The notes below the pieces were generated by a model. That model was not told where the DNA came from and did not search any database. It saw only the letters and a program-made list of their open reading frames with translations. Shown piece after piece: positions 1,841-18,102 of a stretch of DNA of 64,000 bases. Within the stretch, counting starts at the first letter, position 1, and each line of letters begins with the position of its first letter. Origin of the DNA: Faecalibacterium prausnitzii (lineage in GTDB: Bacteria; Bacillota; Clostridia; Oscillospirales; Ruminococcaceae); assembly GCF_003287405.1 (NCBI RefSeq), contig NZ_PRLD01000011.1, positions 1-64,000 of the forward strand. Direction: 5' to 3'. The translations under genes were made by a program, and so were the position numbers.

Positions 1841-1928
1841 AAAACAAAAAAGCCATGAAATCTTTCGATTTCACGGCATTTTCTGGTGCGATGGAAGGGA
1901 CTCGAACCCCCGGCCTACTGATTCGTAG
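1841..1928. repeat. att site 1: 88-bp direct repeat with truncated tRNA-Arg
   Basis: A perfect 88-bp copy of 17983-18070. It contains the 3' half of tRNA-Arg (1884-1928, minus strand, including encoded CCA) plus that tRNA's hairpin terminator. Identity stops exactly at the edge of the anticodon loop (TTCGTAG). That is the usual crossover position for tyrosine recombinases targeting tRNA genes. It is the junction between element A on the left and element B on the right. Confidence 0.93.
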
Positions 1929-2165: not shown

Positions 2166-2199
2166 GCACACCATAAATCAAGTCTTGGAGGATACAACT

Positions 2200-2448
2200 A
2201 TGACGAAATTGCTTTCCTGCCGCTACAACATGGACACCAACCGGGTGGAGGCCCGGTTCGAGGATGGCACCACTCTTACCATTGACTGCATCGCCATCGA
2301 GGAAGAGTACGGTGGCACCCCGGTACAGCGGGCAGAGCTGGACTGGATGCTCTACAATAAGCCCTTGGAGTACGCACAGATGGTGCTGAGAGGGGAGATG
2401 GAGCACTATCTGTCGCTGGGGTGTGACCACGGCAGGCTGGAAGATTGA
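2200..2448 (+). CDS. Small conserved protein (DUF6061-like)
   Basis: An 82-residue soluble protein. The start is the ATG at 2200, preceded by a GGAG box around 2188; a TTG at 2185 is in frame but is the poorer choice. The sequence opens MTKLLSCRYNMDTN, then a beta-rich acidic stretch with RFEDGTTLTIDC, and ends in an alpha-helical half with LDWMLYNKPLEYAQM. From memory it resembles DUF6061 proteins common in Faecalibacterium-type mobile elements. No catalytic motif is visible and the function is unknown. It is the only rightward gene at the left end of element B and faces the exopolysaccharide operon tail to tail. Confidence 0.7.
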   Translation: MTKLLSCRYNMDTNRVEARFEDGTTLTIDCIAIEEEYGGTPVQRAELDWMLYNKPLEYAQMVLRGEMEHYLSLGCDHGRLED

Positions 2449-2681: not shown

Positions 2682-3722
2682 TTATAACCGCCACAGACTA
2701 ATGAACACCTTTTCGCCGGTCAGTTCTCCAAGGCACCTTGCCCACTGGGCAAGGGTCTGTTCATCCGCATACCAAACGGTATCGTTTTTTCGGCCCTCGG
2801 TGTAAGAAAAATACAGTGCCCCGCTGCTCTCATCTCGCTCTGGGGTCACACCCGCTTTTTCTGCCAGCGCCTTTGCCTCTGCCGCGCGGCACTGGGTTGC
2901 CGTTGTTCCATCGTTCTCCCAGATATAACCGCCATTGGCCAGCGCATAAGAGATGTTCGGCAACACACGGAATTTTTCGTATATCTGTTGCAAGAATGCA
3001 AAATCGGCTTTGGGACCCGGCACGGTGCCATTGCCGTAAAGGTTATAACACATCACCACATATTCTGCCCCTGCCGGGAAATCCAGCTGCTCCACCGGCG
3101 TGCTTGGTTCCAGCACGATCCGCACCTTCAACCCGGCATCCTCTGCCAGCAGCAGCAGTTTTTCTTCAAACTTCAGGAACGCCTGCCACAGATCCAGATC
3201 CTTACGGATCTTTTCGTAGTCGATCTCAATGCCGTCAAACCCGTTTTCACTTGCCAGCCGAACCAGTTGCTCCGCATGGCTTTGTGCGGCTTCGTCCGTG
3301 CCAAGAACTTTTTGCAGGATAGCTGTATCCTTCTGGGTGGTCTTGCCGTTCTCCGTCACATCGTTCACGATGGACAGGTAGACCGTTTTATTTTTAGTCT
3401 GCTCCCTGCGCCGGATCTTTTTCAGCATCCGGGTGGTCGGCTCCGGGATCGTCACCTCACCATTCTGGAACGATGCCGCAAACAAGCTGATCTCGTCCAC
3501 CTTTTCCGCTTCATCCTGCAGCACCTCTATGTCACCGGCACAGTCCCAGTAAGTGCTCCAAATTGTCAGCTGTGTGCTCTCCGGCACCAGCGCCTCCACC
3601 TCTTGCACAGTACAGGTATCCGGTTCCACTGTTTCCGGCTCTTCCGCTGTTTTATGTCCCATGCATCCGGTTAGAAATGGCAGACACAGCAAAGCTGCAA
3701 GCGCTCTTTCCAAAATGTTCAT
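2682..3722 (-). CDS. GH18-like glycosidase lipoprotein
   Basis: A 346-residue lipoprotein. The signal peptide ends in a lipobox LTGC (Cys20), so it should be anchored outside the membrane. The fold looks like a GH18-type TIM barrel: GFDGIEIDYE at 161-170 matches the family motif DxxDxDxE with the acid Glu170 present, followed by barrel strands VRIVLEP and YVVMCYN. It is the last gene of the operon, 9 bp after the deacetylase-like gene. By analogy with glycosidases in other synthase-dependent polysaccharide loci it may trim or release the polymer. The substrate cannot be told from sequence. Confidence 0.8.
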   Translation of the reverse strand: MNILERALAALLCLPFLTGCMGHKTAEEPETVEPDTCTVQEVEALVPESTQLTIWSTYWDCAGDIEVLQDEAEKVDEISLFAASFQNGEVTIPEPTTRMLKKIRRREQTKNKTVYLSIVNDVTENGKTTQKDTAILQKVLGTDEAAQSHAEQLVRLASENGFDGIEIDYEKIRKDLDLWQAFLKFEEKLLLLAEDAGLKVRIVLEPSTPVEQLDFPAGAEYVVMCYNLYGNGTVPGPKADFAFLQQIYEKFRVLPNISYALANGGYIWENDGTTATQCRAAEAKALAEKAGVTPERDESSGALYFSYTEGRKNDTVWYADEQTLAQWARCLGELTGEKVFISLWRL

Positions 3723-3731
3723 ACCCTCTCC

Positions 3732-5603
3732 TTACAAGTTCTCAATAAACCAGTTCAGCGTAGCGTTCCACGCATTCTGAATTACATCCAGTACCTTTGC
3801 CCAGCCGTGCAGACAGTTGTCGTACAGAGTTATATCCCCGGCGGTGATGGTCAGATTTTTGAACACACCGTCATACACGTCGTCCGCAACATTGCGCTGA
3901 CTGTAACCCCAGCCGCCCCAGCTTGCGCCCAGTGCAATCCCCCCTGCATCCTGTACCGAAACATCCACTGCGCCGGTCACATCTTCCCCATTCACCAGCA
4001 CACGCAGGGTATCGCCCTGCAGCTGGATCTTAAGGTTCGTATCGCCCTGCTCGTTGATCTGGATATCCGCCACATATTCTTCAGCGCCCTGCGCCACCGT
4101 ATCGGCCTGCTGCTGGCCGGCTTTGCGGGCGGCAGCATAAAACACAAGGCTGTCTGCCGCACTGTCCGCAAATCGGCCACGCATCGTGTATTCTGCGGTC
4201 AGTGCGTCCCGGTCATCCTCTTCCACAGAGATCCGCTCCTCTGCGGGAACAAGATCGTGCAAATCCAGTTCAAACAGATCACTGCGTGAGCCGCCGTCCT
4301 TTTCCGAGACGACCAGATGATCGTTCTGCAGCGATACCATGATGCAGCGGCTTCGTTCCTCGTTTGCCCGCAGATAAATCGTCTGCGTTCCAATTTTGTT
4401 GCCTTGTAAGTCCACAGATACCTGTACATCCTCTGCGTCGGCGTTTTTCAAAGTGACAACACCTTCGCCCTGCGGCAGACTGGTCAGGACGATACGACCC
4501 GTTTTATACTCCACTGCACCGCTTTTCAGCAGCCAGTTTTCACTTTCCTGCTCTGCAAGAGCCTGACTGCCCTTTACAAAGAGGATGCTGCTCTTCTGAC
4601 CCTCCGGCAGATCGTCCCACAAGCGCATCAACAGGTGGTTTGTGCTCCAGCAAGCCTGCGGCTGGATGCGGGTAAGATCGTACAGAGAGGATCCCTTGTT
4701 GTTGCAGGAATAACCATCCCGGTTGAAGTTCATCTCAAACAGATCTTCGATGTTTTCCGCATTCACAGCGCTGACGCTGGCATTGTTGCCAAAGCGGCCC
4801 GTATTGGAGTGCATCAGGCAGTACAGCTTTGGCACACTGCCCAACTGTTCAGTGTAGATCTGCTCCATATAGCGGTAGTCCTGCGTGATGCGGTGCTCCA
4901 TAGCAGTGCGGCTCTCCACAGGGATGCGATCCTTATCCCTGATATAGTCCATCAGGTAATGGTTGTAGTCCCGGCCAAGGTACTGGTTCACCCGCACAAA
5001 TTCATCGCTGGTCATCTGTCCCAGAAACCGGCCGTACCGGTCATAGCTGTTGATGTACGAAAGTCGGTAGCCGTTGGTGCCCAGCTCCCAGAAGCCGTTT
5101 TTCTCCAGATTTTTTAGATCCTTTGCCGAGAGAAATTTCGGATCCTTTTCCGCAAACTTATCGGCATAGCTCAGGATCGTAGCCTTGAAGTTGTATTTTT
5201 CCAAGATCTTGCTGGCAAACAGCGCCGTATCCCGGCGGCCATCCTCAAACATGAGGAACAGCGCCTTATCCGGCAGAGCGGTTCCGTTCTGATAATAGTT
5301 CAGGATGTCCTGCTGGCTGACCGTAACATAGCCCAGATCGTGCAGAGCTTTGAGCTGTTCATCCAGCTGTTTTGTCGAGATCAGGGTATCCGTGCCCTGA
5401 CGATCCACGCCAAAGTAGGACACGACAATAAAGCCGTTGTCCGCTCCGCTGACGATGGCCGGGTTGGAAGGGTCATAGGGCTCGTAGCTCTTACTGATGC
5501 TCAGCGCACGGATGGCGGCAAAAAGCACCGCCAGAAGCACCAGCCCTTCCAATATGGTTCGCACGATCTTGATCTTGTCTTTTCGTGTTTCTATTTTATA
5601 CAT
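3732..5603 (-). CDS. Membrane-anchored degenerate NodB-like protein with C-terminal beta-sandwich
   Basis: A 623-residue protein. The ATG at 5603 overlaps the stop of the synthase gene by 8 bp, pointing to translational coupling. One membrane segment (about 11-34) is followed by an extracytoplasmic polysaccharide-deacetylase-like domain (about 58-330). That domain keeps the FEDG strand (119-122), but the usual SHTxxH metal ligands are replaced by GTNGYR (175-180), so deacetylase activity is doubtful. The C-terminal half (about 340-620) is beta-rich and LamG/DUF1080-like (YTMRGRFAD, ALGASWGGWGYS), which suggests glycan binding. It probably assists export or modification of the polymer made by the upstream synthase. 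Confidence 0.72.
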   Translation of the reverse strand: MYKIETRKDKIKIVRTILEGLVLLAVLFAAIRALSISKSYEPYDPSNPAIVSGADNGFIVVSYFGVDRQGTDTLISTKQLDEQLKALHDLGYVTVSQQDILNYYQNGTALPDKALFLMFEDGRRDTALFASKILEKYNFKATILSYADKFAEKDPKFLSAKDLKNLEKNGFWELGTNGYRLSYINSYDRYGRFLGQMTSDEFVRVNQYLGRDYNHYLMDYIRDKDRIPVESRTAMEHRITQDYRYMEQIYTEQLGSVPKLYCLMHSNTGRFGNNASVSAVNAENIEDLFEMNFNRDGYSCNNKGSSLYDLTRIQPQACWSTNHLLMRLWDDLPEGQKSSILFVKGSQALAEQESENWLLKSGAVEYKTGRIVLTSLPQGEGVVTLKNADAEDVQVSVDLQGNKIGTQTIYLRANEERSRCIMVSLQNDHLVVSEKDGGSRSDLFELDLHDLVPAEERISVEEDDRDALTAEYTMRGRFADSAADSLVFYAAARKAGQQQADTVAQGAEEYVADIQINEQGDTNLKIQLQGDTLRVLVNGEDVTGAVDVSVQDAGGIALGASWGGWGYSQRNVADDVYDGVFKNLTITAGDITLYDNCLHGWAKVLDVIQNAWNATLNWFIENL

Positions 5604-7605
5604 TTGCGTGCTTTCCCCGTTTGTTCTCTGCGTGTTTTCCTGCGCTGGGCGCAGCGTGCTTTTCACCGGAGACTGCGTCCGCCTTGGCTCTCGTTCCCTC
5701 GTTTTTTTCTATGGCATCCGGCTCAGCTGTATCCACCGGAGCATTTTTGTGCCGCTGACGCTTTTCTTTTTCCTTCACGTCGCTTGGGGTCATGCGCGTT
5801 CCCCATGTAGACTTCCAGAAAGTGACCCATGCAAGCGGCATCTGCCACAGCAAAACCACCTCGTAGTACAGGCAGAACAAAAAGCCGAAGTACCATGTAG
5901 AGCTCTTGCGGAAAAACAGCTGCGCAATGCTCATCATCAGCGACATCAGAAGCAGACCCACAAGGAAGGTTGTAGGGAAAATGTGCTGCGTGAACGGCAC
6001 ATAAAACAGATTGTATGCCACCACAATGGGTGCAAGAATGGGCACCAGCAGGCCGATGTAGAAATTCAGTGCAGCAAACGGCTCCTTGCGCCACATGAAC
6101 GCACCTGCCATCAGGGATTCCCGCAACCATGAGCGCTTCCATCGCATCTGCTGCTTGAGAAAAACCTTCTGCTTGTTGGGCACGATGGTAGAGCAGACCG
6201 CCGTATCCTGATAATAGGTGCGGTGATGGCTCAGCACAAAATTCGTCATGGCGCGGTCATCGCCGAATGTGGCCTTATGTCCCAGAAATTTCTGGTTCAG
6301 CCACGCTTCCTCATGCTCCTTGACGATGGACTTCCGGTAGCAGGAGAGAGGACCAGAAAGGCAGGTGACCGTATCAAACAGTGCCTCGGACGCCTTCATA
6401 ACGCGGAATGCGATATAATAACGGACAGACTGCATCTTGGTCAGGCTGTTGGTATAGGTGTTGGCCACATCGGTGCGCCCGGCCACGCCACCCATCTTCG
6501 GGTCCTTGAACGGCTGCACCAGATTCACCACCGCATAGGGATCCAGAAAGCTGTCTGAATCCACAAAAATCACAAACTCGCCCTTTGCCACATCCACGCC
6601 GCGGCACAATGCCGCACGCTTGCCAGCGTTCTGCTCCTGCACGATATAGGACAGCCGGTTTCGGATATCCGTGCGTTCTCCCTCGGCAGAGGCTATTTTT
6701 TCAATGGTATCCTTGATCACCTCCACCGAGCGGTCAGTGGAGCAGTCATCCACCACGATCACCTCCAGCTTATCCGGCGGATAGCTTTGGTTCATACAGG
6801 AGATGATCGTGCGGCTGATCCATGTTTCCTCGTTGAAGCAGGGGATAATAATAGTCACGCTGGGCTTGAACGCCGGGTCGATCTTTACCGGGCGGTACAG
6901 TGCACCGAAGGCATACCGGGTAAGCAGGAACATAGCCGCAATGATGCTGTAAGAGTACATGACGGCATTGTACTTGAAGTAGATCACGCTCTCGCTGCGC
7001 ATCAGCACTACCATCATGCTGATGAACAGCAGCAGGATCACACTGCTCACATACAGATAGCGATCCTTATGGCGGTGCATATATGTACCCAGGTCCTCAG
7101 CAAATTCAAAACCGGCGCAGGTCTCGCCATCCCGCTCAAAAACGCGCACACAGGAAGCTGCCGTATGGATCGACATCTCGTGGCCTTCCGGCATACTTCC
7201 GGGCGGGATATCGAACCGCAGCTCTGTTTCTGAAGCTTCCTTCAGCTGCTCTGCATCCTCTTTTTCCAGCCGGACAAGAATACCCGTTTCGGAGATATCG
7301 CGGCTCTCGCCCTTCAGCGTGTGTGCCTTGCCGTCCTGATCTCTGAAATCTACTGTGACCGGAAACTTTGACTTATACCGGATGCCGGACTTGCGCTTTT
7401 TCATCACCGCATCCACATCGTTTGGATCGTCCACAACACCGCGTCGGTCAAAGGACGTACGCTGTCCGGTGGGATCCGGTACGTCCGGCAGGATACGCCG
7501 GTCTAGCCGCTCACTGAGCAGAATGTCCCCGTCAAATGTTTCCAGCGTCACGTTTTTCTTTTTATCCGCGGTATGTTTTTCTGCCTTTTTTCGAAAAAAA
7601 CTCAC
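5596..7605 (-). CDS. PilZ-domain processive glycosyltransferase (GT2 polysaccharide synthase)
   Basis: A 669-residue inner-membrane synthase. The start is a GTG at 7605, six bases after AAGGAG; the frame is open further upstream but without a better site. Residues about 69-170 form a PilZ domain with R71-x3-R75 and DISETG (103-108), the residues that bind c-di-GMP. Two membrane segments follow (about 184-202 and 212-233). The GT2 domain starts at 250 (VTIIIPCFNEE) and has VVDD (284-287), DSDS (349-352), GDD (448-450) and QQMRW (485-489), the D, DxD, ED-like and QxxRW signature of cellulose, alginate and hyaluronan synthases. Several C-terminal membrane helices complete the channel. Fusing synthase and c-di-GMP sensor parallels Alg8/Alg44 in one chain. 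Confidence 0.9.
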   Translation of the reverse strand: MSFFRKKAEKHTADKKKNVTLETFDGDILLSERLDRRILPDVPDPTGQRTSFDRRGVVDDPNDVDAVMKKRKSGIRYKSKFPVTVDFRDQDGKAHTLKGESRDISETGILVRLEKEDAEQLKEASETELRFDIPPGSMPEGHEMSIHTAASCVRVFERDGETCAGFEFAEDLGTYMHRHKDRYLYVSSVILLLFISMMVVLMRSESVIYFKYNAVMYSYSIIAAMFLLTRYAFGALYRPVKIDPAFKPSVTIIIPCFNEETWISRTIISCMNQSYPPDKLEVIVVDDCSTDRSVEVIKDTIEKIASAEGERTDIRNRLSYIVQEQNAGKRAALCRGVDVAKGEFVIFVDSDSFLDPYAVVNLVQPFKDPKMGGVAGRTDVANTYTNSLTKMQSVRYYIAFRVMKASEALFDTVTCLSGPLSCYRKSIVKEHEEAWLNQKFLGHKATFGDDRAMTNFVLSHHRTYYQDTAVCSTIVPNKQKVFLKQQMRWKRSWLRESLMAGAFMWRKEPFAALNFYIGLLVPILAPIVVAYNLFYVPFTQHIFPTTFLVGLLLMSLMMSIAQLFFRKSSTWYFGFLFCLYYEVVLLWQMPLAWVTFWKSTWGTRMTPSDVKEKEKRQRHKNAPVDTAEPDAIEKNEGTRAKADAVSGEKHAAPSAGKHAENKRGKHANV

Positions 7606-7633
7606 GCTTTTCTCCTTATCAAAAAATCCAATA

Positions 7634-10228
7634 TCATCCGACCGTATGTGTTCGGAGATAATCGACCCACAGAGTATATCCAGCAGGCTTGAGGTGATAT
7701 CCATCTTCCTGTGCGATTTCTGCTTTTAGATTTCCATTTTCATCTGCCAGCACATCCCACAAATCCAGATAGTAGCAATTTTTTTCTTGTGCAATTAAAG
7801 CCAATTCCTGATTAACTTGTTTCAATCTTGTCTGATTCAATCCAGGATGCTCCACAGAGGCAGAAAGCTGCACAGGCGTAATAGATTGAATGTAAATCGT
7901 TGCCCCAGGCACCGCCTGCGCAACCGCATCCAGCATAAGACGATAATATGCAAGAAAGCCGTTATAATCGCCGTCTGAACCTAATACATTGGTGCCAAGC
8001 AAAATATAGACCGCTTTCGGATTTTGTGCCGCAAGCTTTTCCAGCGGTTTCTCCGATGTGCCATCTTCCCGCATACAAGTCATATCGGTTGCAATGGCAT
8101 TGGGGCCGATGCCCTTATATGCACAGAACTTCGCATTGGGCAAACCAGTTTTATAGGATTCCATTCCAAGCGTCAAACTATCGCCTATAAAAGTAACATC
8201 ATCGAAATAGTTCAGAGGGACTGCTGTCGTTTCAGGAACTGTTACAACGCCATTCAAAACCTTGCCCAACACGATTTTGACCAGCTTGCACCCGCTTGCG
8301 CTGATTGCTTCACTGACCGCATCCGACGCAGTTTCGCTCGGCATCAAAACAACATCTGATTCCGAATTATATCGCCATTTCGCATATTTCTCCCATGCAT
8401 TCAAGTAATTCATCATTGCGTCAAACGTCTGTGGATAGTCATCTGATGGTTTATATGCAATGCCAATTCTATTTCCTTCTTTTAGTGTTTTCTCTACCGC
8501 ATCTGGGCAGTTCATAAGTTCATTCAGCGTCAGAAAGAACATTCCTTTGGCATCTGGATCTTTTACTTTAGCGATCGTGCTGACCGCTGCAGCTTTTCCA
8601 CCCATTCCGTACTGCGAAAATCCCTCCGAACGCTCACTTGTGTAAACCATATTCTCTACTGTTGCCAGCTTGTGGTCATTCTGTTTGCGCAGGGCGCTGA
8701 GCTCCTGCGGGGTCAGTGTGGGCAGCGTACCGGATTTTTGGATCACTGTTGCCAGATCTGTCAGTTGCAGTCCGGCCTGCTCTGCCTGCTGCTTCAGGGC
8801 GGAAAGGTGCTCTGTGTCCAGTGTGTCCAACAGATACAACGAGCCTGCCTGCATTTGCTCCGGATTTTCCGGCATCACGATCTTTGTGTTCAGCAGACGC
8901 GCCGCAACCCGGAGCGAAGTCAGAGCCTCTGCATCGGTCTGCGCATCGGCAAGCACCAGTCCGGAAGCACTTTCAAATGTGCAAAGTGCATCGTACAGCT
9001 TATCGAATACTGCCGTGCGGGAAAGGCCCTTCAGCTGCTCTGCAGGCAGATACAGACCAACGCTGCACCCTGCCGCTTCCAGCCTTGCAAGCTCCTCGCT
9101 GCGCGCAGCGGCTTCTTCCGCTGTGGCGAAATAGGTCGCAGTTATATTCTGCTGCGTCAGAATTTCCAGTGCAGCATCCATGCCGTCCGCAGACGGCAGT
9201 GTTCTGATCGCCACACCTGCCTGCTTTTGATTTGTCAGACAGCTGCGGTAAATCGGAGCCATCTCGGCATCCGCTGCCTCCGCTTCGCTCCGCAGCACAT
9301 CCAGCCCCTTTACGCGGCTAAAACGGCTTACATATTCCGTTTTCATATCCTGCGCTTTCAGTGCCTGCACCAGCCAGTTCACCTGTGTCAGAATATCTGC
9401 TTTTTCGTCTTCCGGCTGCTTGGTATCGTCCAGCTCCGGCTGCTTGTCGATGGCAGGCTTTTCAGCGGTGACAGCGTCTTCGTTCTGTATTTCTTCCGCT
9501 ACGCCTCGCAGGTTGACCACCACAACGGCATCGCCCTGCAATCCGGCCACAAAGCTCTCCGCATCGGCGGCAGCTTCAAAGCTGCTCTCGCTCAGCACAT
9601 GGCTGTCTGCCGCCTGCACCACCGCTTCATAGCCACTGACAGACGCCGCCCGCAGCACATCGCCGGTCAATGCGGTACTGCTGCAATACAGCAGCGGAAC
9701 GCTCTCGTTCGCCGCTGTGGCAATAGCCTCGCGGGATTTAAGCATGGTGCTCACCATTTCCTGCGTGGTCCTGGTATGCAGGTTGCTTTCGCCCGCCGCG
9801 CCATTGCTCAGCAGGTCGTTCCCCTCCGCCAGCATATCCGTAAGAAAGTCCTCATTATCCAGTGCCTCGGCAGCTGAAAGGGCAAAGCTAGCCTTCAGTC
9901 CATTCTGCTTTATCAGCTCCAGAACAGCATGGTTCGTGTCCGCTTCCTCCGTCAGACCCACGAACACAAGACCCACGCGGGTGGTTTCACCCGGAGCGCC
10001 CTGAATGATATCAGCCGGAGCACTCTCGCTCAGACCCTTCAGCGCCAGCTCCACCGCATTACTTCCCGTCTCGATGGTGCCGTCCACATTCGCTACGGCA
10101 TCCGAAAGATAGGTGCGATTGTGGTAGTACAGCAGCCAGACCACTGCAGCCGCAATGCACAGACCCAGCAGAACGCCCAGCAGCGCCAGGCTGCGGACCC
10201 GCCTGCGTTTCGTCACATTCTCCACCAT
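7634..10228 (-). CDS. Membrane-anchored triple NodB-like repeat protein with C-terminal SGNH esterase
   Basis: An 864-residue type II membrane protein with an N-terminal TM at about 13-35. Three successive regions (about 75-255, 330-510 and 545-665) each resemble the polysaccharide-deacetylase barrel but lack the Asp-His-His metal site. A PEDEK-rich acidic linker lies near 265-285. The C-terminal 185 residues are an SGNH/GDSL hydrolase with FIGDS (Ser684), LGTN (745-747) and DGYH (Asp842, His845), so the esterase triad is intact. O-acetyl transfer or removal on the exported glycan is the likely role, as for AlgX/AlgJ-type proteins. It overlaps the upstream dehydrogenase gene by 16 bp, with AAGGAG inside that gene. 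The fusion architecture is not one I recognise. Confidence 0.75.
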   Translation of the reverse strand: MVENVTKRRRVRSLALLGVLLGLCIAAAVVWLLYYHNRTYLSDAVANVDGTIETGSNAVELALKGLSESAPADIIQGAPGETTRVGLVFVGLTEEADTNHAVLELIKQNGLKASFALSAAEALDNEDFLTDMLAEGNDLLSNGAAGESNLHTRTTQEMVSTMLKSREAIATAANESVPLLYCSSTALTGDVLRAASVSGYEAVVQAADSHVLSESSFEAAADAESFVAGLQGDAVVVVNLRGVAEEIQNEDAVTAEKPAIDKQPELDDTKQPEDEKADILTQVNWLVQALKAQDMKTEYVSRFSRVKGLDVLRSEAEAADAEMAPIYRSCLTNQKQAGVAIRTLPSADGMDAALEILTQQNITATYFATAEEAAARSEELARLEAAGCSVGLYLPAEQLKGLSRTAVFDKLYDALCTFESASGLVLADAQTDAEALTSLRVAARLLNTKIVMPENPEQMQAGSLYLLDTLDTEHLSALKQQAEQAGLQLTDLATVIQKSGTLPTLTPQELSALRKQNDHKLATVENMVYTSERSEGFSQYGMGGKAAAVSTIAKVKDPDAKGMFFLTLNELMNCPDAVEKTLKEGNRIGIAYKPSDDYPQTFDAMMNYLNAWEKYAKWRYNSESDVVLMPSETASDAVSEAISASGCKLVKIVLGKVLNGVVTVPETTAVPLNYFDDVTFIGDSLTLGMESYKTGLPNAKFCAYKGIGPNAIATDMTCMREDGTSEKPLEKLAAQNPKAVYILLGTNVLGSDGDYNGFLAYYRLMLDAVAQAVPGATIYIQSITPVQLSASVEHPGLNQTRLKQVNQELALIAQEKNCYYLDLWDVLADENGNLKAEIAQEDGYHLKPAGYTLWVDYLRTHTVG

Positions 10229-11526
10229 GTAATTTCAAGCTCCTTCAACTGCGACACCGGCCATTCGCCTTTTACATCCAGCAGCACACGCTTTGCCCCG
10301 CCATCCGGGCGGAACAGTGCCATCAGTCCGGGCAATCCCATTTCACGGAACTGCCGGTGCGCCACCGCGTGCAGAATGCAGTCGGCGTTTTCCACCTGCT
10401 CCAAATCGGTCAGCGCAACGCCATATTCCTTCTGTACCAGCGCCTTGTCTGCACAGGGATCCACTACAACAGGGCAGATGCCGTACTCTTCCAAAGTATG
10501 TACAATGTCGGCCACCCGGGTATTACGGACATCCGGGCAGTTTTCCTTAAAGGTGAACCCAAGGATCACCACACGGGCCTGCGCCGGTGCAAGCCCGGCC
10601 TGCACCATCTTTTTTACCGCCATCTCTGCCACGAAGCGCCCCATGGAATCGTTCATTCTGCGGCCGGCTGCCACGATCTGACTTTCATAGCCCACCTGAT
10701 GCGCCTTGTAAATAAAGTAATAGGGATCCACCCCGATGCAGTGGCCGCCCACCAGCCCCGGGCGAAAACCCAGTGCATTCCACTTGGTGTTCATGCCGTC
10801 CACAACTTCGTTGGTATCGATTCCAATTTTTTCAAAGACCTCCGCCGCCTCGTTCATGAATGCTATATTGATATCCCGCTGGCTGTTTTCTACCAGCTTG
10901 ATCGCTTCAGCAGTTTTGATGGAGGAGACCGGGAAGGTACCGGCGTCAATGATCCTGTCGTAGACGTTCTTTACCTTTGTCAGTGTTTCCGCGTCCATGC
11001 CCGAAACGATTTTTTGGATGGTGCGCAGCGTATGGACTTTGTCGCTCGGATTGATGCGTTCCGGCGAATATCCGATCTTGAAGTCTGTGCCGCCCTTCAG
11101 TCCACTTTCTTGCTCCAGGACCGGCAGACAGAGTTCCTCTGTCACGCCGGGGTAGACCGTGCTCTCATAGACCACCGTTGCGCCCAGCTTCAGGTTACGC
11201 CCCACCGTACGGCTGGCCGAAATGACCGGGGTCAGATCTGGGGTATTGTCCGGGTGGATCGGCGTCGGAACTGCCACAATGACGAAATCCGCCTGCCGGA
11301 GCTCCGCTTCCTTTGCTGTAAAATGAACAGAGCTGGCCGCAACAGCTGCATCACCAACTTCTGTTGTCACGTCCTCGCCCTTGCAGTAACGTGCAATTTT
11401 CTGTGCATCAACATCATATCCGATCACATCCATGATCTCCGAAAAGGCAACTGCCAGCGGCAAGCCCACATAGCCCAAACCGACCACAGCCAGCTTGCCT
11501 TCAAAAGCTTCTGTTTGATGACTCAT
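10213..11526 (-). CDS. Nucleotide-sugar 6-dehydrogenase (TviB/WbpO type)
   Basis: A 437-residue cytoplasmic NAD-dependent enzyme that oxidises C6 of a UDP-sugar to the uronate. It shows the Rossmann motif VVGLGYVGLP (14-23), YESTVYPG, YSPERINPSDK, and GGHCIGVDPYY with the catalytic Cys263. It also has FTFKENCPDVRNTR in the C-terminal domain. These segments match Vi-antigen TviB and WbpO (UDP-GlcNAc or UDP-GalNAc 6-dehydrogenases) better than UDP-glucose dehydrogenases. The product is thus likely UDP-HexNAcA. It is the first gene of the operon and has a GGAGG site. It supplies an acidic precursor for the synthase two genes downstream. The exact sugar is inferred. Confidence 0.87.
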   Translation of the reverse strand: MSHQTEAFEGKLAVVGLGYVGLPLAVAFSEIMDVIGYDVDAQKIARYCKGEDVTTEVGDAAVAASSVHFTAKEAELRQADFVIVAVPTPIHPDNTPDLTPVISASRTVGRNLKLGATVVYESTVYPGVTEELCLPVLEQESGLKGGTDFKIGYSPERINPSDKVHTLRTIQKIVSGMDAETLTKVKNVYDRIIDAGTFPVSSIKTAEAIKLVENSQRDINIAFMNEAAEVFEKIGIDTNEVVDGMNTKWNALGFRPGLVGGHCIGVDPYYFIYKAHQVGYESQIVAAGRRMNDSMGRFVAEMAVKKMVQAGLAPAQARVVILGFTFKENCPDVRNTRVADIVHTLEEYGICPVVVDPCADKALVQKEYGVALTDLEQVENADCILHAVAHRQFREMGLPGLMALFRPDGGAKRVLLDVKGEWPVSQLKELEITWWRM

Positions 11527-11622
11527 TTTACACTTCCTCCATTTCGAATCACTTGGTACCTTTTGATAGAGCCGATTATTATCTCATGTTCTCCTAAATT
11601 TTTTAAACACTGTATTTTTTTC

Positions 11623-11651
11623 ATTATATCGCTTTTTTGCAGATGCCGCAA
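11623..11651 (-). promoter_or_regulatory. Promoter of the exopolysaccharide operon
   Basis: On the minus strand, TTGCGG (11646-11651) and TATAAT (11623-11628) are 17 bp apart, a good vegetative promoter. The leader is about 90 nt. It holds an extra AGGAG box followed after three bases by ATG-AGA-TAA, a two-codon minimal reading frame, before the true start at 11526. Confidence 0.7.
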
Positions 11652-11679
11652 GACATTTTTTAAGCATCACATTACTTCC

Positions 11680-11765
11680 ATACAGGGAATTCGCTTGTCG
11701 TTCCTCTTGTCACGGCCATGGGCCAGCGGATCAGCGCACTGGCCGAGTATGAGCAGCGCAGTTGA
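11680..11765 (+). pseudogene. Possible 3' remnant of a coding gene
   Basis: The frame ending at 11765 reads TAMGQRISALAEYEQRS then stop. It looks like the amphipathic C-terminus of a real protein, but it has no start or upstream body. It sits just before the oriT region, so it may be the tail of a lost mobilization gene. The identification is weak. Confidence 0.25.
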
Positions 11766-11770
11766 TGGGC

Positions 11771-11870
11771 GTTTCTCTTGGGTTTCCAAAGGGGTGCGGG
11801 TCGCCAGTGGCGACCTCAAAATGCAGCGCATTTTGAAGCACCTGACCGAGCCGACAGGCGAGAGGCAGTA
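11771..11870. other. Short palindromes before oriT
   Basis: Two perfect short palindromic stems stand out: GTCGCC-AGT-GGCGAC and AAAATG-CAGCG-CATTTT. They lie directly upstream of the oriT core and may be accessory protein sites or hairpins of the transfer origin. Nothing coding is seen from 11766 to 12110. Confidence 0.4.
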
Positions 11871-11885
11871 CCCCTTTGGCACACG

Positions 11886-11915
11886 ACTTTGCCTGCAAAG
11901 TCTAGTGTGTTACAC
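11886..11915 (+). other. Origin of transfer (oriT), pMV158/MobV type
   Basis: The inverted repeat ACTTTGC-CT-GCAAAGT (11886-11901) is followed after one base by TAGTGTGTTA (11903-11912). This is the arrangement of the pMV158 MobM origin, where the nick falls in TAGTGTG/TTA. The predicted nick is between 11909 and 11910. GTGT/ACAC (11905-11915) forms the second small inverted repeat. The cognate MobV relaxase gene lies 3.3 kb to the right on the same strand, unusually far for this family. Confidence 0.72.
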
Positions 11916-12110
11916 CTTGGTTCCGGCTGACGCGGAAAAGGGGCTGCGAAAGGCTCCGGCAAGCACCTGTTCTGTGGCAGAAGGATGCGCGGATGGGCGT
12001 TGCTATTGACGGTCTCCGCCCGCCCAGCGCAGGCTTGCAGAGGAACCAATGGTGTACGTTCTCCCGTCCTGCCGCAGCAGCGTTTCCCCTATAAGGCGCA
12101 GGGCAAATGA

Positions 12111-12926
12111 TCAGCGTCTGTGCTTGCCCCGGTTGCCTGCAAGTGTCCCCGGTTTCAGCATTGCCGTTTTATAAAGAATCTTCTTTATCAGCTTTCTTTC
12201 ATCTTCTGTCAGCTTATCGTAGTTGATGCCGATCGCCTTCAATGCCGTTCGGATCTTCTTTTCATCCGCAGACCCTTCAAGTTTCTGTGCATCCTCCAGT
12301 TCCTTCATCAGGTTGTCGATCATTGCACCATCCGAAGTGGTCTTGTCCTTGCGGTGTTCCGTCTTGATGTTCTTCAGGATAGCCACCAACTCGTCATACA
12401 AGACCCGGCCAAAGTACTCATCTTCATCGATCTGCCCCAGCTTCAAGGTGCTCATGTACAGATCATTTTCATCTGCTGCATACTTCTTTTTCAGCATTTG
12501 CCGGGTCGCTTCCAGACCAGCATTGAGGTTTTGAATGTTTGCGCTGACATATCCATCCACATAGATTTCCAGATCGGTCATGAACCGCCGGAAATTCTCA
12601 TGCACGATCAGTTCGCACAGCAGCCGATGATTGAATTTTCCATTCCTTAATACGTCCACTGCGCCATCGCTCAGATGCAAGTCCGAAAGGACTGCATCTG
12701 GGCGTTTTTTGTTTTCCGTCACACCCAGCAGGTAGTCGGTGGTCACGCCATAGAACTCAGCCAGCGTTGTCACCGCATAAATGCTGAGGTCGGTCACATC
12801 GTCGCTCTCATATTTCGACAGTGCCGATTTGGACAGACCCGTCTGCTCTGCCAGCGTTTCCAACTTCAGATTCCGCTCCACACGCAGGTCTTTGAGCCGT
12901 TCTCCCAGTGTCAGCTTGATGTTCAT
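12111..12926 (-). CDS. XRE-family transcriptional regulator with long C-terminal domain
   Basis: A 271-residue protein. The N-terminal 65 residues form a Cro/CI helix-turn-helix (LGERLKDLRVERN, LAEQTGLSKSALSKYES, LAEFYGVTTDYLLG). The remaining 200 residues are mostly helical and charged, a probable sensing or oligomerisation domain of unknown ligand. The start at 12926 is set by GGAGGTG six bases upstream. It lies between oriT and the CoiA-like gene, oriented away from the relaxase gene. Regulation of transfer or of the cargo operon is plausible but not shown. Confidence 0.82.
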   Translation of the reverse strand: MNIKLTLGERLKDLRVERNLKLETLAEQTGLSKSALSKYESDDVTDLSIYAVTTLAEFYGVTTDYLLGVTENKKRPDAVLSDLHLSDGAVDVLRNGKFNHRLLCELIVHENFRRFMTDLEIYVDGYVSANIQNLNAGLEATRQMLKKKYAADENDLYMSTLKLGQIDEDEYFGRVLYDELVAILKNIKTEHRKDKTTSDGAMIDNLMKELEDAQKLEGSADEKKIRTALKAIGINYDKLTEDERKLIKKILYKTAMLKPGTLAGNRGKHRR

Positions 12927-12989
12927 GGTCGCACCTCCGATGTTTTTTGCACAGTATACCACTTCCGGCGGTTCCTGTCCATAAGCGTG

Positions 12990-13383: not shown

Positions 13384-14859
13384 TTACAGAGTATCGAGGT
13401 TTTGAATGAACTCAATTTCTTTTCCTAAACTAATCCATTTTTCCTGTATATATTGAAAAGGACTATTTGTGTCTGGAAATCTCATCAACAATCCTTCTAA
13501 GAAGGTCGCATAGTTTCTTCTCAGCGGCTTTAACGACCTGTGCATTATTCTGTGATTCAATCCAGAATATGGGTAAAAATAATACCGAATATCAATAAAG
13601 CCTAATGCTGACAAATGCACCAGATATTCTTCAATCGCACAGCGGAGAAGATCTTCCTCGGGTGAAAATTTGACCTTTCCCTTCTTTTTCCAAATATAGA
13701 CAAACTTTGGGTTCAACAGTCCTTCCCGACAGCCCGCAAAATAGCAATATATTCTCGCACTATTCACATCGTCATATTGCCATTGATAGAACACTTTTTC
13801 AAATAAAATCGTTTGCCAGATTCTCCGGTCACAATTAAACACGACCTCTCCAAAGACTGGGATATTCAAAAAGAAAGGTATCTCATCTGTTGTCTTAAAC
13901 CTCAGATTGTAGATTCCCAGACGATTGATGCAATTCAGAACGGCAGTATCCGCCCCTTTGGTTTTAGCCTTGCAGCTCAAATAATACGGTTCATCCGTGT
14001 GAAGCCGTTCTACTTCAACATCGATCTGCTCCCGGAGCCTTTGCTGTTCTTGTATCCAACTCTCCTGCTGTTCCTCCCGCTTTTTCCGTTCTTCCTGCTC
14101 CTTTAGTATCTTTATGCGATTTTGTTGATATTCTATTTCAAGTTCTCGGTTTCGCTCACAGAGTTTTTTGATTCCCTCATTTTCGCTCGGGTGGTAGATC
14201 CATGTTTTGTTTTCAACGTTTTCTACCAGATTGTTCCTCAGTTTTTTCTCAAAATCATTTATCGAGTCTGTTTCTTCCTCTTTATAGTCTTTTATAAAAT
14301 CAGCAATATTGATTTCTACTGTTGGCATCTGCGCCATTTTTATCTTGCTATATTTTTCCGCATCAACATAGTGCGTTACGGCAATCTCAATAAGGATATT
14401 TTTTCGCTCTCGAAAAATGCAAACATCCGGCTTGAATCCATCAAACGGCACTTCTGTTTTAGCATTTTGATAGTGAAGCTTAAACTTTTCTCCCAACAAT
14501 AATGGCTCTTGCTGTTTATAGTCCTCCACATTGCGATCAGGATCATTTTGTTCCGATATCGTCACTGGGGGCAGCCAAATATATTCGCTCTTGCAAACGA
14601 TTTCTTTTGCTATTTTATGAAGTCCGCTTTCATTTGCTTCATCTGCCGAACACGTTGTTCTTCCTTCTTCTGCCAAATGTGCAAAGTGTGCAGTCTTTTT
14701 TCCGCGCCCCAATTTAGCAACCAAAGGGTGACCGCAACAGAGACAAATGCACTCACACGCCTTTCCTCTATCTTTTTCCACCATCTCAGAGATGTGTACC
14801 ACTTGATTAGATTCTTCTTTTAAGGCGAAATAAATCATTCCGCTATGATTCAATTCCAT
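13384..14859 (-). CDS. CoiA-like protein with zinc-finger and nuclease-like domain
   Basis: A 491-residue protein. The N-terminus carries a CICLCCGHPL zinc-finger-like motif and AHFAH (about 35-60), the opening seen in competence protein CoiA and relatives. It is followed by FKPDVCIF and ILIEIAVTH (about 130-150), a fair match to a PD-(D/E)xK nuclease core. A long basic/glutamine coiled coil (about 220-275) precedes a C-terminal domain with no known motif. CoiA-type proteins act on single-stranded DNA or recombination intermediates during DNA uptake. The gene is visibly AT-rich compared with its neighbours, suggesting a separate origin. ATG at 14859 follows AGGTG at six bases. Confidence 0.65.
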   Translation of the reverse strand: MELNHSGMIYFALKEESNQVVHISEMVEKDRGKACECICLCCGHPLVAKLGRGKKTAHFAHLAEEGRTTCSADEANESGLHKIAKEIVCKSEYIWLPPVTISEQNDPDRNVEDYKQQEPLLLGEKFKLHYQNAKTEVPFDGFKPDVCIFRERKNILIEIAVTHYVDAEKYSKIKMAQMPTVEINIADFIKDYKEEETDSINDFEKKLRNNLVENVENKTWIYHPSENEGIKKLCERNRELEIEYQQNRIKILKEQEERKKREEQQESWIQEQQRLREQIDVEVERLHTDEPYYLSCKAKTKGADTAVLNCINRLGIYNLRFKTTDEIPFFLNIPVFGEVVFNCDRRIWQTILFEKVFYQWQYDDVNSARIYCYFAGCREGLLNPKFVYIWKKKGKVKFSPEEDLLRCAIEEYLVHLSALGFIDIRYYFYPYSGLNHRIMHRSLKPLRRNYATFLEGLLMRFPDTNSPFQYIQEKWISLGKEIEFIQNLDTL

Positions 14860-15020
14860 ATTCTGCACCTCTGCAACGTTCCAAAGAAACCGTTTTTATC
14901 ATTCTAACATACTTTTTCCTCTTGTCTATCATTTGATACTACTTTTCATGGGCATCGAGCCGCTTGTCCACCCCTGCCCGTAAAAAGTGCATTTTTTCAC
15001 GGAAGAAGTTCGTACAACCT

Positions 15021-15175: not shown

Positions 15176-16153
15176 ATGAAAGCCCAATACGGCATTTTAA
15201 GGTTCAAAAAGTATAAGGGGCCAGCAATCAGCCCCATCGAAGCCCACAACGAGCGCACCAAGGAGCAGTACGCCAGCAACCCGGACATCGACACGAGCCG
15301 GAGCCGCTACAACCTCCATCTGGTGCAGCCACAGGGCAGGTACCGGGAAGAAGCCGACCGCATGATAGCCGCCGCCCACTGCCGTGTCCGCAAGGACAGC
15401 GTGCGAGTGGTGGAAGCACTCGTCACCGCCAGCCCGGAGTTTTTCAAAGGCAAGACGCACAGCGAAGTCAAGGCGTACTTTGCGTACGCCCTGAAATTTT
15501 TGGAGGGCAGACAGCACCCGGATACCTTTCTCTCTGCCGTTGTCCACATGGATGAGAAAACGCCCCACCTGCACCTCTGTTTTGTGCCCTTGACCGCTGA
15601 CGGGCGGCTGAGCGCCAAAGAGATCATCGGCAACCGCAAGAACCTTGTGAAGTGGCAGGACGAGTTCTGGCAGCACATGGTCAAGCAGTATCCGGAACTG
15701 GAGCGTGGCGAAAGCGCCAGCCAGACCGGGCGAGAGCACATCCCGCCCCGCATCTTCAAGGAGATGACCCAGCTGACCAAGCAGAAGGAGCAGTTGGATG
15801 CCCTGCTGGTGGGTATCACCCCCTTCAACGGCAAGAGCCGTGCGGCGGAGATCAGCAAGGTGCTGGACAGCTATATCCCCAACGTGGCACGGATGAAGGA
15901 CCAGCTGCGAAAGTATAACGTAGCCTTCACCAAGACCGCCGCCGAAAACGAAAAGTTAAAAGAGAAGAACAAGACGCTCTCTGCCTCGCTGGACAAAGCG
16001 AAGGAAGGGAGCGTCTTGAAGCGTCTGGAGGATGCCAAGCTGCGGCAGGACTACGAAGCCGCCCTGAAAACGCTGGACAGCATCCCGCCGGAGGTCATTC
16101 GTTTTTATGAGAACCGCAGCACGCAGGAATCTGCGATGCGCCACGATAAGTAA
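15176..16153 (+). CDS. MobV-family relaxase (Mob/Pre)
   Basis: A 325-residue plasmid mobilization relaxase that nicks oriT and pilots the strand. Motif I HNERTK..SRYNLHL lies at about 24-49 and motif III HMDEKTPHLHL at about 124-134, the histidine-rich metal site of MobV enzymes. A C-terminal coiled coil (about 255-300) is typical for dimerisation. Start ATG at 15176 follows AAGGAG. The excisionase gene begins 12 bp after the stop, so mob, xis and int probably form one transcript. Length is somewhat shorter than pMV158 MobM but all catalytic motifs are present. Confidence 0.92.
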   Translation: MKAQYGILRFKKYKGPAISPIEAHNERTKEQYASNPDIDTSRSRYNLHLVQPQGRYREEADRMIAAAHCRVRKDSVRVVEALVTASPEFFKGKTHSEVKAYFAYALKFLEGRQHPDTFLSAVVHMDEKTPHLHLCFVPLTADGRLSAKEIIGNRKNLVKWQDEFWQHMVKQYPELERGESASQTGREHIPPRIFKEMTQLTKQKEQLDALLVGITPFNGKSRAAEISKVLDSYIPNVARMKDQLRKYNVAFTKTAAENEKLKEKNKTLSASLDKAKEGSVLKRLEDAKLRQDYEAALKTLDSIPPEVIRFYENRSTQESAMRHDK

Positions 16154-16165
16154 GGAGAACTGCCT

Positions 16166-16471
16166 ATGTGTAATAAAATGTACGAGAATGTGAAATCTTT
16201 TGATTATACGAAAAAGTCCTTGCAGTCGGACTCTGATCCGGCTACAATGGAGGTGGTCACTCGAACCAATGCCGTCAAGTCTCCGACCAACAGCCCTGAG
16301 ACCACTAAGCTGGTGTACACGGTAAAGGAGGTCGCACAGATGCTGGCCATCAGCCAGCGCGCCGCCTACAACCTGTGCAACAGCACCACCGAATTCCGTG
16401 TCCTGCGGGCAGGCGGAAGCATCCGCATCCCGAAAGACAGCTTCGATGCGTGGCTCTACCGGGCAGCTTGA
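16166..16471 (+). CDS. Excisionase-like helix-turn-helix protein of element B
   Basis: A 101-residue paralogue of the protein at 16-315. Its C-terminal half carries YTVKEVAQMLAISQRAAYNLCN and IPKDSFDAW, a winged-helix DNA-binding domain of the excisionase/MerR type. AAGGAG stands eight bases before the ATG. It lies directly before the integrase gene and after the relaxase gene. It presumably controls integration versus excision at the tRNA-Arg att sites. The N-terminal 50 residues are unrelated to those of the element A protein, apart from general polarity. Confidence 0.82.
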   Translation: MCNKMYENVKSFDYTKKSLQSDSDPATMEVVTRTNAVKSPTNSPETTKLVYTVKEVAQMLAISQRAAYNLCNSTTEFRVLRAGGSIRIPKDSFDAWLYRAA

Positions 16472-16486
16472 TAAGGAGGCAAATCT

Positions 16487-17875
16487 ATGGCATATATCAC
16501 GAAACGCGGCAGTTCTTACAGTGTCCGCTACACCTATCAGGACGAGCACGGCAAGAGCTGCGACAAATGGGAAAGCTTTCCCACTAAGGAGGAGGCGGTG
16601 AAACGCCAGAAGCAGATCGAGCATGAGCTGGCGACCGGCAATTTCCTGATCCCGTCCGCCGTGACGGTGGCAGAGTTCCTGATGGACTGGCTGCCCAAGC
16701 AGTGCAGCAAGCACAAGTGGGCACCCAAGACCTACCAGTCCAATCTGGCGCTCATCCAGAACCTCATCATCCCCTATATCGGGGAGATGCAGATGCAGAA
16801 GCTGCGGCCCTACCACATCGAAGCCCTGTACGACACCCTGAGCAAGACCCCCTGCGGGCAGTATGTGGGCGGCAAGCGGCGAGACCTCTCGCCCAAGCAG
16901 CAGAAGCGCACCCTCTCCGGCACCACCCTCCATGAAGTCCACCAGTTGCTGCACAATTCCTTTCTGCTGGCGGTGGAGTGGGGCATCCTCATCAAAAGCC
17001 CCGTCCCGGTGGAAGCGCCCAAAAAGACCACCCAAGAGCGCAGCATCTGGGAGGTGGAGGAGATGCGGGCAGCGCTGGACAGCATGGAGGACCCCATCCT
17101 GCATCTGGCGGTGCACCTGACGCTGGTGGGTGCGCTGCGGGAAGGGGAGGTGGCAGGTCTGACCCCGGAGGACATCGACTTTGATGCTGCCAACGGCATG
17201 GGCACCTTCACCGTCAACCGTTCCATGCAGCGGGTGCAGAAGGACACGCTGGCGCAGGTGGACAAGGGCTGCATCCTCCGCATCTTCCCGGACAAGCTGG
17301 AGGGCAGCAAGACCTCCCTTATCCTGAAGGACACAAAGACGGAAGCCTCCTGCCGCACCATCTTTATGACCGCTGCCTTGCGGGAGGAGCTGAAGCAGTG
17401 GCTGGAACGGCTGAAACGGGAAGAAACCCTCGACCCGGAACGATACCGCAACAGCGGGATGCTGCTGCGGCTCCCCAACGGTCTGGCGGTAGAGCCGGTG
17501 CTCATCCGCAAGAAGTTCCTGAAATGGCAGGACACACACCCGGAGTTTCCTCGCATCGTGTTCCACGGTCTGCGCCATTCCAGTGCCACCTACCAGTTAA
17601 TGATCTCCGGCGGCGACATCAAGGCGGTGCAGGGGACCACTGGTCACGCCAGTGCGGATATGCTGGTGAACACCTACGCCCATATCCAGCAGTCCTCCCG
17701 TGTAGAGCTGGGCAAGAAGTTTGAAAGCGGCTTCTATGCCAAGCCCGACACCTCCAGCCCGCAGGCTGTACCCGCCGCAGGCGAACCTACCATCTCCATG
17801 ACGGCTCTTTTGGAATTGCTGAAGGATGCCGACCCGGAAATGAAGGCAAAACTCCGCTTAGCACTGCTCACCTGA
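16487..17875 (+). CDS. Tyrosine recombinase (integrase) of element B
   Basis: A 462-residue tyrosine recombinase. It has an N-terminal arm-binding domain (GSSYSVRYTYQDEHGK, about 7-22), a core-binding domain (about 60-180) and a catalytic domain. The active-site set is Arg in ALREGE (about 217), Lys in KDTKTE (about 284), HGLRH (about 358-362), His in TTGHA and Tyr in VNTYAH (about 395). It reads towards the right att and the tRNA-Arg 3' end. A good AAGGAGG site precedes the ATG. The close similarity to the integrase at 330 fits two elements using the same tRNA site. Confidence 0.94.
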   Translation: MAYITKRGSSYSVRYTYQDEHGKSCDKWESFPTKEEAVKRQKQIEHELATGNFLIPSAVTVAEFLMDWLPKQCSKHKWAPKTYQSNLALIQNLIIPYIGEMQMQKLRPYHIEALYDTLSKTPCGQYVGGKRRDLSPKQQKRTLSGTTLHEVHQLLHNSFLLAVEWGILIKSPVPVEAPKKTTQERSIWEVEEMRAALDSMEDPILHLAVHLTLVGALREGEVAGLTPEDIDFDAANGMGTFTVNRSMQRVQKDTLAQVDKGCILRIFPDKLEGSKTSLILKDTKTEASCRTIFMTAALREELKQWLERLKREETLDPERYRNSGMLLRLPNGLAVEPVLIRKKFLKWQDTHPEFPRIVFHGLRHSSATYQLMISGGDIKAVQGTTGHASADMLVNTYAHIQQSSRVELGKKFESGFYAKPDTSSPQAVPAAGEPTISMTALLELLKDADPEMKAKLRLALLT

Positions 17876-17982: not shown

Positions 17983-18070
17983 AAAACAAAAAAGCCATGA
18001 AATCTTTCGATTTCACGGCATTTTCTGGTGCGATGGAAGGGACTCGAACCCCCGGCCTACTGATTCGTAG
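17983..18070. repeat. att site 2: 88-bp direct repeat at the intact tRNA-Arg
   Basis: Perfect copy of 1841-1928. It covers the 3' half of tRNA-Arg up to the anticodon loop, the encoded CCA and the tRNA terminator. The stem-loop ACTGA-TTCGTAG-TCAGT in the intact gene provides the symmetric core site. Confidence 0.93.
17988..18019 (-). terminator. Terminator of tRNA-Arg
   Basis: On the minus strand, an 11-bp stem (18009-18019 with 17994-18004, one G-U pair) closes a GAAA tetraloop and is followed by TTTTTTG. Because it lies in the att repeat, each inserted element carries its own copy. Confidence 0.85.
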
Positions 18071-18102
18071 TCAGTCACTCTATCCAGCTGAGCTACCAAC
18101 GC
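18026..18102 (-). tRNA. tRNA-Arg (anticodon ACG)
   Basis: A full cloverleaf on the minus strand: acceptor GCGTTGG with CCATCGC (one T-T mismatch), D-arm AGCTCAGCTGGATAGAG, anticodon stem ACTGA/TCAGT around CTACGAA with ACG at 34-36, T-loop TTCGAGT, discriminator A, encoded CCA at 18026-18028. ACG reads CGN arginine codons after A-to-I editing. It is the integration target of both elements. Confidence 0.95.

Follow-up and report, generated by a model that had tools for sequence, protein, structure and literature searches.

What is carried between the two attachment (att) repeats at the start of contig NZ_PRLD01000011.1 of Faecalibacterium prausnitzii, and is it controlled by cyclic di-GMP (c-di-GMP)? 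The stretch analysed (positions 1 to 64,000, hereafter the window) is the start of one of the 70 contigs of a 3.03-Mb genome. An earlier reading of the letters without database searches (the sequence-only reading) described five leftward genes at this site as a c-di-GMP-responsive exopolysaccharide (EPS) operon on a mobilizable element. The results presented here suggest that the element probably does carry a self-contained operon for a secreted polysaccharide, which would be made by a synthase of the hyaluronan synthase (HAS)/NodC class under c-di-GMP.

The five leftward open reading frames (ORFs) are confirmed, and the profile matches agree with the proposed gene set from a precursor dehydrogenase to a GH18-like lipoprotein (Table 1). 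The synthase has the DxD, GDDR and QQxRW motifs and the HAS fold (structural comparison over residues 214-634), and among solved structures processive hyaluronan synthases are its best relatives. Its best NCBIfam equivalog is NodC, with a score of 178 bits that is under the cut-off of 550, while its scores with the PgaC/IcaA and CelA/BcsA models are 118 bits (far under the cut-off of 422) and 49 bits (cut-off 699), respectively. Judged by these profiles and the fold, the synthase belongs to the HAS/NodC class, not to cellulose synthases. The dehydrogenase scores 428 bits with the TviB model, as compared with 118 bits for the TuaD UDP-glucose dehydrogenase. Its predicted substrate is UDP-N-acetylhexosamine (UDP-HexNAc), and a HasB-type UDP-glucose 6-dehydrogenase is not found in the operon by profile comparison. 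The SGNH hydrolase blocks GDS(L), GxN and DxxH are all present in the protein encoded upstream of the synthase, and the closest solved relative of this domain is named sialate O-acetylesterase/lysophospholipase L1 (1.4e-9). The protein that had been read as NodB-like with a beta-sandwich does contain such a sandwich, which is CBM66-like, but its PgaB-like domain has FEDGRRD and TNGYR where FDDG and HxxxH-type motifs are expected, and the metal-ligand histidine is absent. This protein is therefore unlikely to be an active deacetylase. PgaD or IcaD is not matched by any of the five operon proteins. The GH18-like protein, of which the closest solved structure is YdhD (1e-4), retains the catalytic glutamate of DxxDxDxE within the motif DGIEIDYE; in 68 aligned rows, the last D and the E are conserved in 68, the middle position is E in 65 and the first D is present in 46. 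The product is probably a chitin- or hyaluronan-like secreted sugar polymer. The profile cut-offs and the partner genes speak against naming it cellulose, poly-N-acetylglucosamine (PNAG) or hyaluronan proper.

The operon is framed by an exact 88-bp direct repeat, and the right copy of this repeat covers the 3' half of a transfer RNA (tRNA) gene, tRNA-Arg(acg). The element extends over 16.1 kb from repeat to repeat and is larger than the five-gene stretch first noted (2682..11526). The exact repeat, together with a relaxase, a probable excisionase and an integrase at this tRNA gene, agrees with the proposal of a mobilizable element bounded by att repeats. Mating-pair genes are not detected by a Pfam scan in the 11 ORFs between the att sites. 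An integrase, a relaxase and att repeats at a tRNA gene, without conjugation machinery of its own, characterize the element as an integrative and mobilizable element. The integrase, HTH_17 and relaxase ORFs are all uninterrupted. The G+C content is 53.5% in the operon and 58.9% in 18310-64000. These results suggest that the element is integrative and mobilizable, measures 16.1 kb and has its insertion site at the 3' end of tRNA-Arg(acg).

Table 1. Features of the element and its operon in the window
Feature	Position	Strand	Basis or remark
UDP-N-acetylhexosamine 6-dehydrogenase, TviB type	10213..11526	-	profile match
Degenerate NodB-like stretches and C-terminal SGNH	7634..10228	-	GDSL, GTN, DGYH blocks; PF13472 3.4e-19
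Processive synthase	5596..7704	-	N-terminal arginine segment (DRR..R..DRR), PilZ, GT2 of hyaluronan-synthase/NodC class
PgaB/IcaB-like CE4-fold protein	3732..5666	-	N-terminal helix (28-55), CBM66-like beta-sandwich, C-terminal helix
GH18-like protein	2682..3722	-	lipobox FLTGC (by eye); Pfam PF00704 3.7e-8
Left attachment repeat	1841..1928		88 bp identical to 17983-18070; also end of left-hand neighbouring element
Right attachment repeat	17983..18070		overlaps tRNA-Arg(acg) 18026-18102 (-)
Mob_Pre relaxase	15176..16153	+	Pfam PF01076 4.3e-50
HTH_17 protein, probable excisionase	16166..16471	+	Pfam scan
Tyrosine integrase	16487..17875	+	Pfam PF00589 3.3e-11
Xre-family helix-turn-helix (HTH) regulator of the element	12111..12962	-	Pfam HTH_19/HTH_3
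CoiA_N-like protein, variable slot of the element	13384..14868	-	21.8 bits, under cut-off 26.3
DUF6061 small protein, role in the element unassigned	2185..2448	+	Pfam 1.4e-38

When 31 species genomes of the genus, including the own genome, are searched at E <= 1e-60, the synthase is found in two of them and the dehydrogenase in the same two. At the genus level, these genes are thus not fixed in the core genome, a case that had been named as one that would speak against a mobile operon. The synthase of Faecalibacterium sp. I4-1-79 (locus L009) is 99% identical to that of the window. A copy of the element is located at 71166-87969 in a second Faecalibacterium species (G029), in which the EPS element is the third of three elements stacked from the tRNA gene and an element with an integrase matching that at 297-1730 of the window is the second. 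In the window, the EPS element adjoins the tRNA gene and the element with the integrase at 297-1730 lies beyond it. The two EPS elements are 98.4% identical over 10.75 kb and 96.5% identical over 3.1 kb, and the neighbouring elements are 97.3% identical over the visible 1.9 kb. Because the order of the array differs in two species at 96-98% identity, the EPS element has probably moved, and independent insertion or re-insertion is the simplest reading of the differing array positions. The region at 13386-14944 of the window is absent from the G029 copy, which has a CHC2-type primase and a D5/DUF5906 protein (L099:2250-4353) in place of the CoiA_N-like gene. Comparison of the two copies marks these genes as a swapped module. 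By our own count, another att-like copy of the tRNA-Arg site lies on the same contig in at least 14 of the 31 genomes, which marks this tRNA gene as a hotspot at which related elements stack in the genus. For F. prausnitzii, the accessible part of PMC6295017 reports islands that carry integrases and mobilization genes.

The gene set itself is not confined to the element. A scan of a species-genome collection for the synthase gave 116 relatives, and the best 80 loci were kept; these were chosen with the window protein and lean to close relatives. The 80 loci and the window form 81 rows, which were searched by BLAST with the window proteins as queries (1e-10). The synthase is present in 81 rows, the NodB-like protein in 80, the protein at the SGNH position in 71, the GH18 protein in 68 and the dehydrogenase in 29 (upstream in 27). 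The core order of esterase or deacetylase, PilZ-synthase, NodB-like protein and GH18 protein is conserved in 61 of the 80 loci (62 of the 81 rows with the window), mostly from Clostridia and Negativicutes. Among the 19 rows without the full order, several of which are on short contigs, 13 have no GH18 match (one of them also no NodB match) and six have no upstream protein. The same order is found on a Paenibacillus plasmid, the sole plasmid match, in which the genes carry generic names only. The idea that the set is peculiar to the element therefore has to be given up. No relative is found in viral contigs or phage records. The distribution of the synthase in the class is patchy and rare (4 of 391 sampled genomes, own included, E <= 1e-100). 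An integrase and a relaxase of the window type are confined, among the 81 rows, to the window and L009. A distant integrase occurs in L044. Of the 12 tRNA genes in the 80 loci, only one (in L062) has its last 18 bases repeated, in an arrangement that does not span the operon. The operon is therefore not generally linked to tRNA genes. The gene set is not described in the accessible parts of PMC10374906, PMC7710045, PMC7112194, PMC6123363, PMC6295017, PMC6200980, PMC8461298, PMC5122149 and PMC8669469, nor elsewhere in the literature searched, which largely excludes subscription papers, so that a description elsewhere is possible. This gene-set family is spread over many anaerobes, and in Faecalibacterium its carrier is an element that appears to be transferable.

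The PilZ domain of the synthase scores 29.8 bits, over the Pfam cut-off of 22.5, while that of a Clostridium carboxidivorans relative scores 19.1 bits, under this cut-off. No PilZ match is found for this region in PDB by sequence profile. Of the two binding motifs expected from the sequence-only reading, D/NxSxxG is present in all 50 aligned rows (DISETG in the window), but the canonical RxxxR is not: the window has KSGIR with a lysine at position -4, where arginine is found in 3 of the 50 rows. R109 is invariant in the 50 rows, and D68-R69-R70, R82 and R87-R88 of the N-terminal segment are invariant in the 49 ungapped rows, of which 45 have D86 and four have E at this position. A c-di-GMP riboswitch is located 40-207 nt upstream of the first gene of the operon, on the same strand, in 7 of the 34 loci scanned with Rfam (class II in L073; class I in L040, L052, L068, L070, L077 and L079), and no other c-di-GMP riboswitch reaches the threshold in these loci; the remaining 27 have none upstream. 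Five of the six class I loci belong to one clade of the synthase tree, so that the independent cases number about three. The riboswitch linkage in these relatives lends independent support to c-di-GMP control. In the window, no riboswitch is detected, either at the gathering score over the whole window or with E values up to 1 over 11400-12200. This result and the missing RxxxR weigh against c-di-GMP control. The own genome has 11 GGDEF and two EAL matches; in the eight GGDEF matches whose motif was read, GGDEF is retained in five and replaced by SGDEF in two and by GSDEF in one. In the genus, GGDEF domains are found in 30 of the 31 genomes, PilZ in two, both times on the synthase of the element, and a c-di-GMP-I riboswitch in 13. 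Because PilZ is not found elsewhere and riboswitches are present in the genus, the PilZ domain of the element is the single one detected, but other c-di-GMP receptors are possible. One c-di-GMP-I riboswitch of the own genome lies beyond the window, at G000:C50:151894-151988. Control of the operon by c-di-GMP, which had been proposed as probable, is plausible on these grounds; binding of c-di-GMP by the synthase and its activation are what we infer.

The position before the synthase differs among relatives. The protein encoded there ends in a CE4 domain in 68 of the 81 rows and in SGNH in seven (the window, L009, L054, L056, L058, L066 and L082). A CE4 protein is encoded downstream of the operon in two rows (L078 and L087), and neither domain is found in four, three of which are near contig ends. 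The CE4 domains of L011, L012, L025 and L073 show TFDDW and HxxxH-type motifs. In the synthase tree, which includes one mis-extracted row (L058), the window and L009 are nested in a clade that has 13 CE4 rows (SH-aLRT 99). L054, L056, L058, L066 and L082 also have MBOAT and DHHW/AlgX cluster genes (one member of each was scanned with Pfam). Because SGNH in the window takes the place that a CE4 deacetylase occupies in most relatives, the polymer of the mobile version is probably modified in another way, and O-acyl chemistry may be inferred to have replaced N-deacetylation. Among 12 genomes of relatives, eight have a dehydrogenase with 53-60% identity, in the locus or elsewhere, and the best match in the other four, all Clostridium, shows 34-36% identity. 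The uronate may thus have been added to an aminosugar backbone in certain lineages only.

Ten loci have an extra gene for a protein of about 500 residues at the head of the operon (for example, L077:4301-5866). One is labelled Acholeplasmataceae, and the other nine we take to belong to Negativicutes. A Pfam scan of one member gives no match. Eight of the ten proteins end in phenylalanine, most with YYF or similar, and the N-termini of three resemble SLH, as in outer-membrane barrels of diderm bacteria. Their alternation score is above all 50 shuffles in four of the ten, so that the idea of an outer-membrane barrel comes mainly from the C-termini. The extra gene is a candidate for an export pore and fits weakly with a secreted polymer.

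The operon may work as follows. The dehydrogenase would oxidise UDP-HexNAc to its uronate, and the synthase, a GT2 enzyme (glycosyltransferase family 2), would polymerise N-acetylglucosamine (GlcNAc), probably with this uronate, and extrude the chain. The N-terminal arginine segment and PilZ would sense c-di-GMP produced by the resident GGDEF enzymes and thereby open the synthase. Outside the membrane, the anchored PgaB-like/CBM66-like protein would hold or guide the chain without deacetylating it, the SGNH domain would remove (or place) O-acyl groups, in the place of the CE4 N-deacetylase of most relatives, and the GH18 lipoprotein would trim the chain.

Hyaluronan synthases are paired with HasB supply. 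The window operon resembles the systems of Xenopus HAS1 and Chlorella virus HAS in the fold and motifs of the synthase and in the nucleotide-sugar dehydrogenase alongside it, but differs from them in that the dehydrogenase is of the TviB/UDP-HexNAc type, PilZ is fused to the synthase and enzymes for extracellular modification are present. It shares a PgaB/IcaB-like domain, a GT2 and a hydrolase-like partner with the PNAG systems (PgaABCD and IcaADBC), but its deacetylase site is degenerate, its synthase is under the PgaC/IcaA cut-off and PgaD/IcaD is not matched. The gene families of the Gram-positive Pel cluster differ from those of the window operon. The likeness to this cluster lies in synthase-dependent EPS production in Gram-positives (PMC7112168, accessible part). 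As far as the accessible parts of the sources go, the clostridial ccsZABHI cluster (PMC7710045) and the RiGT2 glucan synthase (PMC10374906) also combine PilZ and GT2 in Clostridia, and ccs includes an MBOAT/DHHW pair, as do some relatives of the window operon. However, both are BcsA-like, with PilZ C-terminal in RiGT2, whereas the window synthase is HAS-like with an N-terminal PilZ. E. coli NfrB is likewise a GT2 with a c-di-GMP-binding domain that controls a secreted EPS, but according to the accessible part of PMC8669469 this domain is MshEN rather than PilZ and the partners are different.

It is somewhat unlikely that the PilZ domain is a structural relic and that the synthase is constitutive or otherwise regulated. 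Such a relic would be consistent with the poor conservation of RxxxR in the synthase family, with no riboswitch being detected for the window operon, with the weak PilZ score of the C. carboxidivorans relative and with the precedent of the PilZ-bearing Romboutsia synthase RiGT2, as described in the accessible part of PMC10374906. However, 49-50 diverse rows keep D/NxSxxG as well as six arginines that precede the domain or stand at its start, and the same operon stands behind a c-di-GMP riboswitch in seven relatives, both of which argue for a sensor. A short chito-oligosaccharide, a glycolipid or a glycan bound to the wall, of the kind linked with NodC or HexSDF-type clusters (PMC10128005, accessible part), is an unlikely product. 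Processive hyaluronan synthases are the best solved relatives of the synthase, a sandwich of carbohydrate-binding type and a hydrolase are parts that fit a polymer system, and the Negativicutes relatives have an additional protein resembling an outer-membrane barrel, although NodC is the best equivalog, a mannosyltransferase scores nearly as high in the fold comparison and the GH18 enzyme could shorten chains.

That the element is a degraded, immobile island and the operon merely an accessory chromosomal locus is improbable, because the integrase, HTH_17 and relaxase ORFs are uninterrupted, the att repeat is perfect and the array order differs between two closely matching copies. The absence from the window copy of the primase and D5-type genes that G029 has, the lack of mating-pair genes among the 11 ORFs scanned and the presence of only two carriers among 31 genomes would be in line with such decay. 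A PNAG-type system making partly deacetylated poly-GlcNAc is very unlikely. The PgaB-like fold and the similarity to PgaC/IcaA point to it, but this similarity is far under the cut-off, the deacetylase metal ligands are absent, the CE4 domain of the relatives is replaced by SGNH and a dehydrogenase is not known to take part in PNAG synthesis. A secreted, c-di-GMP-controlled polymer of HAS/NodC type is therefore preferred.

We suggest tentatively that the family forms a separate class of synthase-dependent EPS systems, with a HAS-class enzyme, an N-terminal sensor in which an invariant DRR-x11-R-x3-DRR (D86 sometimes E) replaces RxxxR, an anionic aminosugar/aminouronate polymer and an interchangeable head (CE4 in most, SGNH in few). 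The element would plug this sensor into a Faecalibacterium network in which no other PilZ is found and, if this is true, one transfer event would endow the recipient with a new c-di-GMP-controlled surface polymer. Because GGDEF is nearly universal in the genus and PilZ is found only in the two carriers, carriers and non-carriers provide a natural test of an added c-di-GMP output. With this family, a single-enzyme relative of hyaluronan synthase that may be switched by c-di-GMP becomes available from Gram-positives, and the apparently exchanged head domain is useful for studying the evolution of polymer modification. F. prausnitzii is among the commonest human gut bacteria (PMC6295017, accessible part).

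The remaining features of the element lie outside the operon. The HTH of the Xre protein matches PADLOC capH, but the defence-system models give similarity in the HTH only, and this protein is probably the regulator of the element itself. An exact inverted match of 27 nt is present between 2139-2165, upstream of the DUF6061 gene, and 16255-16281, in the HTH_17 gene, and the same pair is also present in G029.
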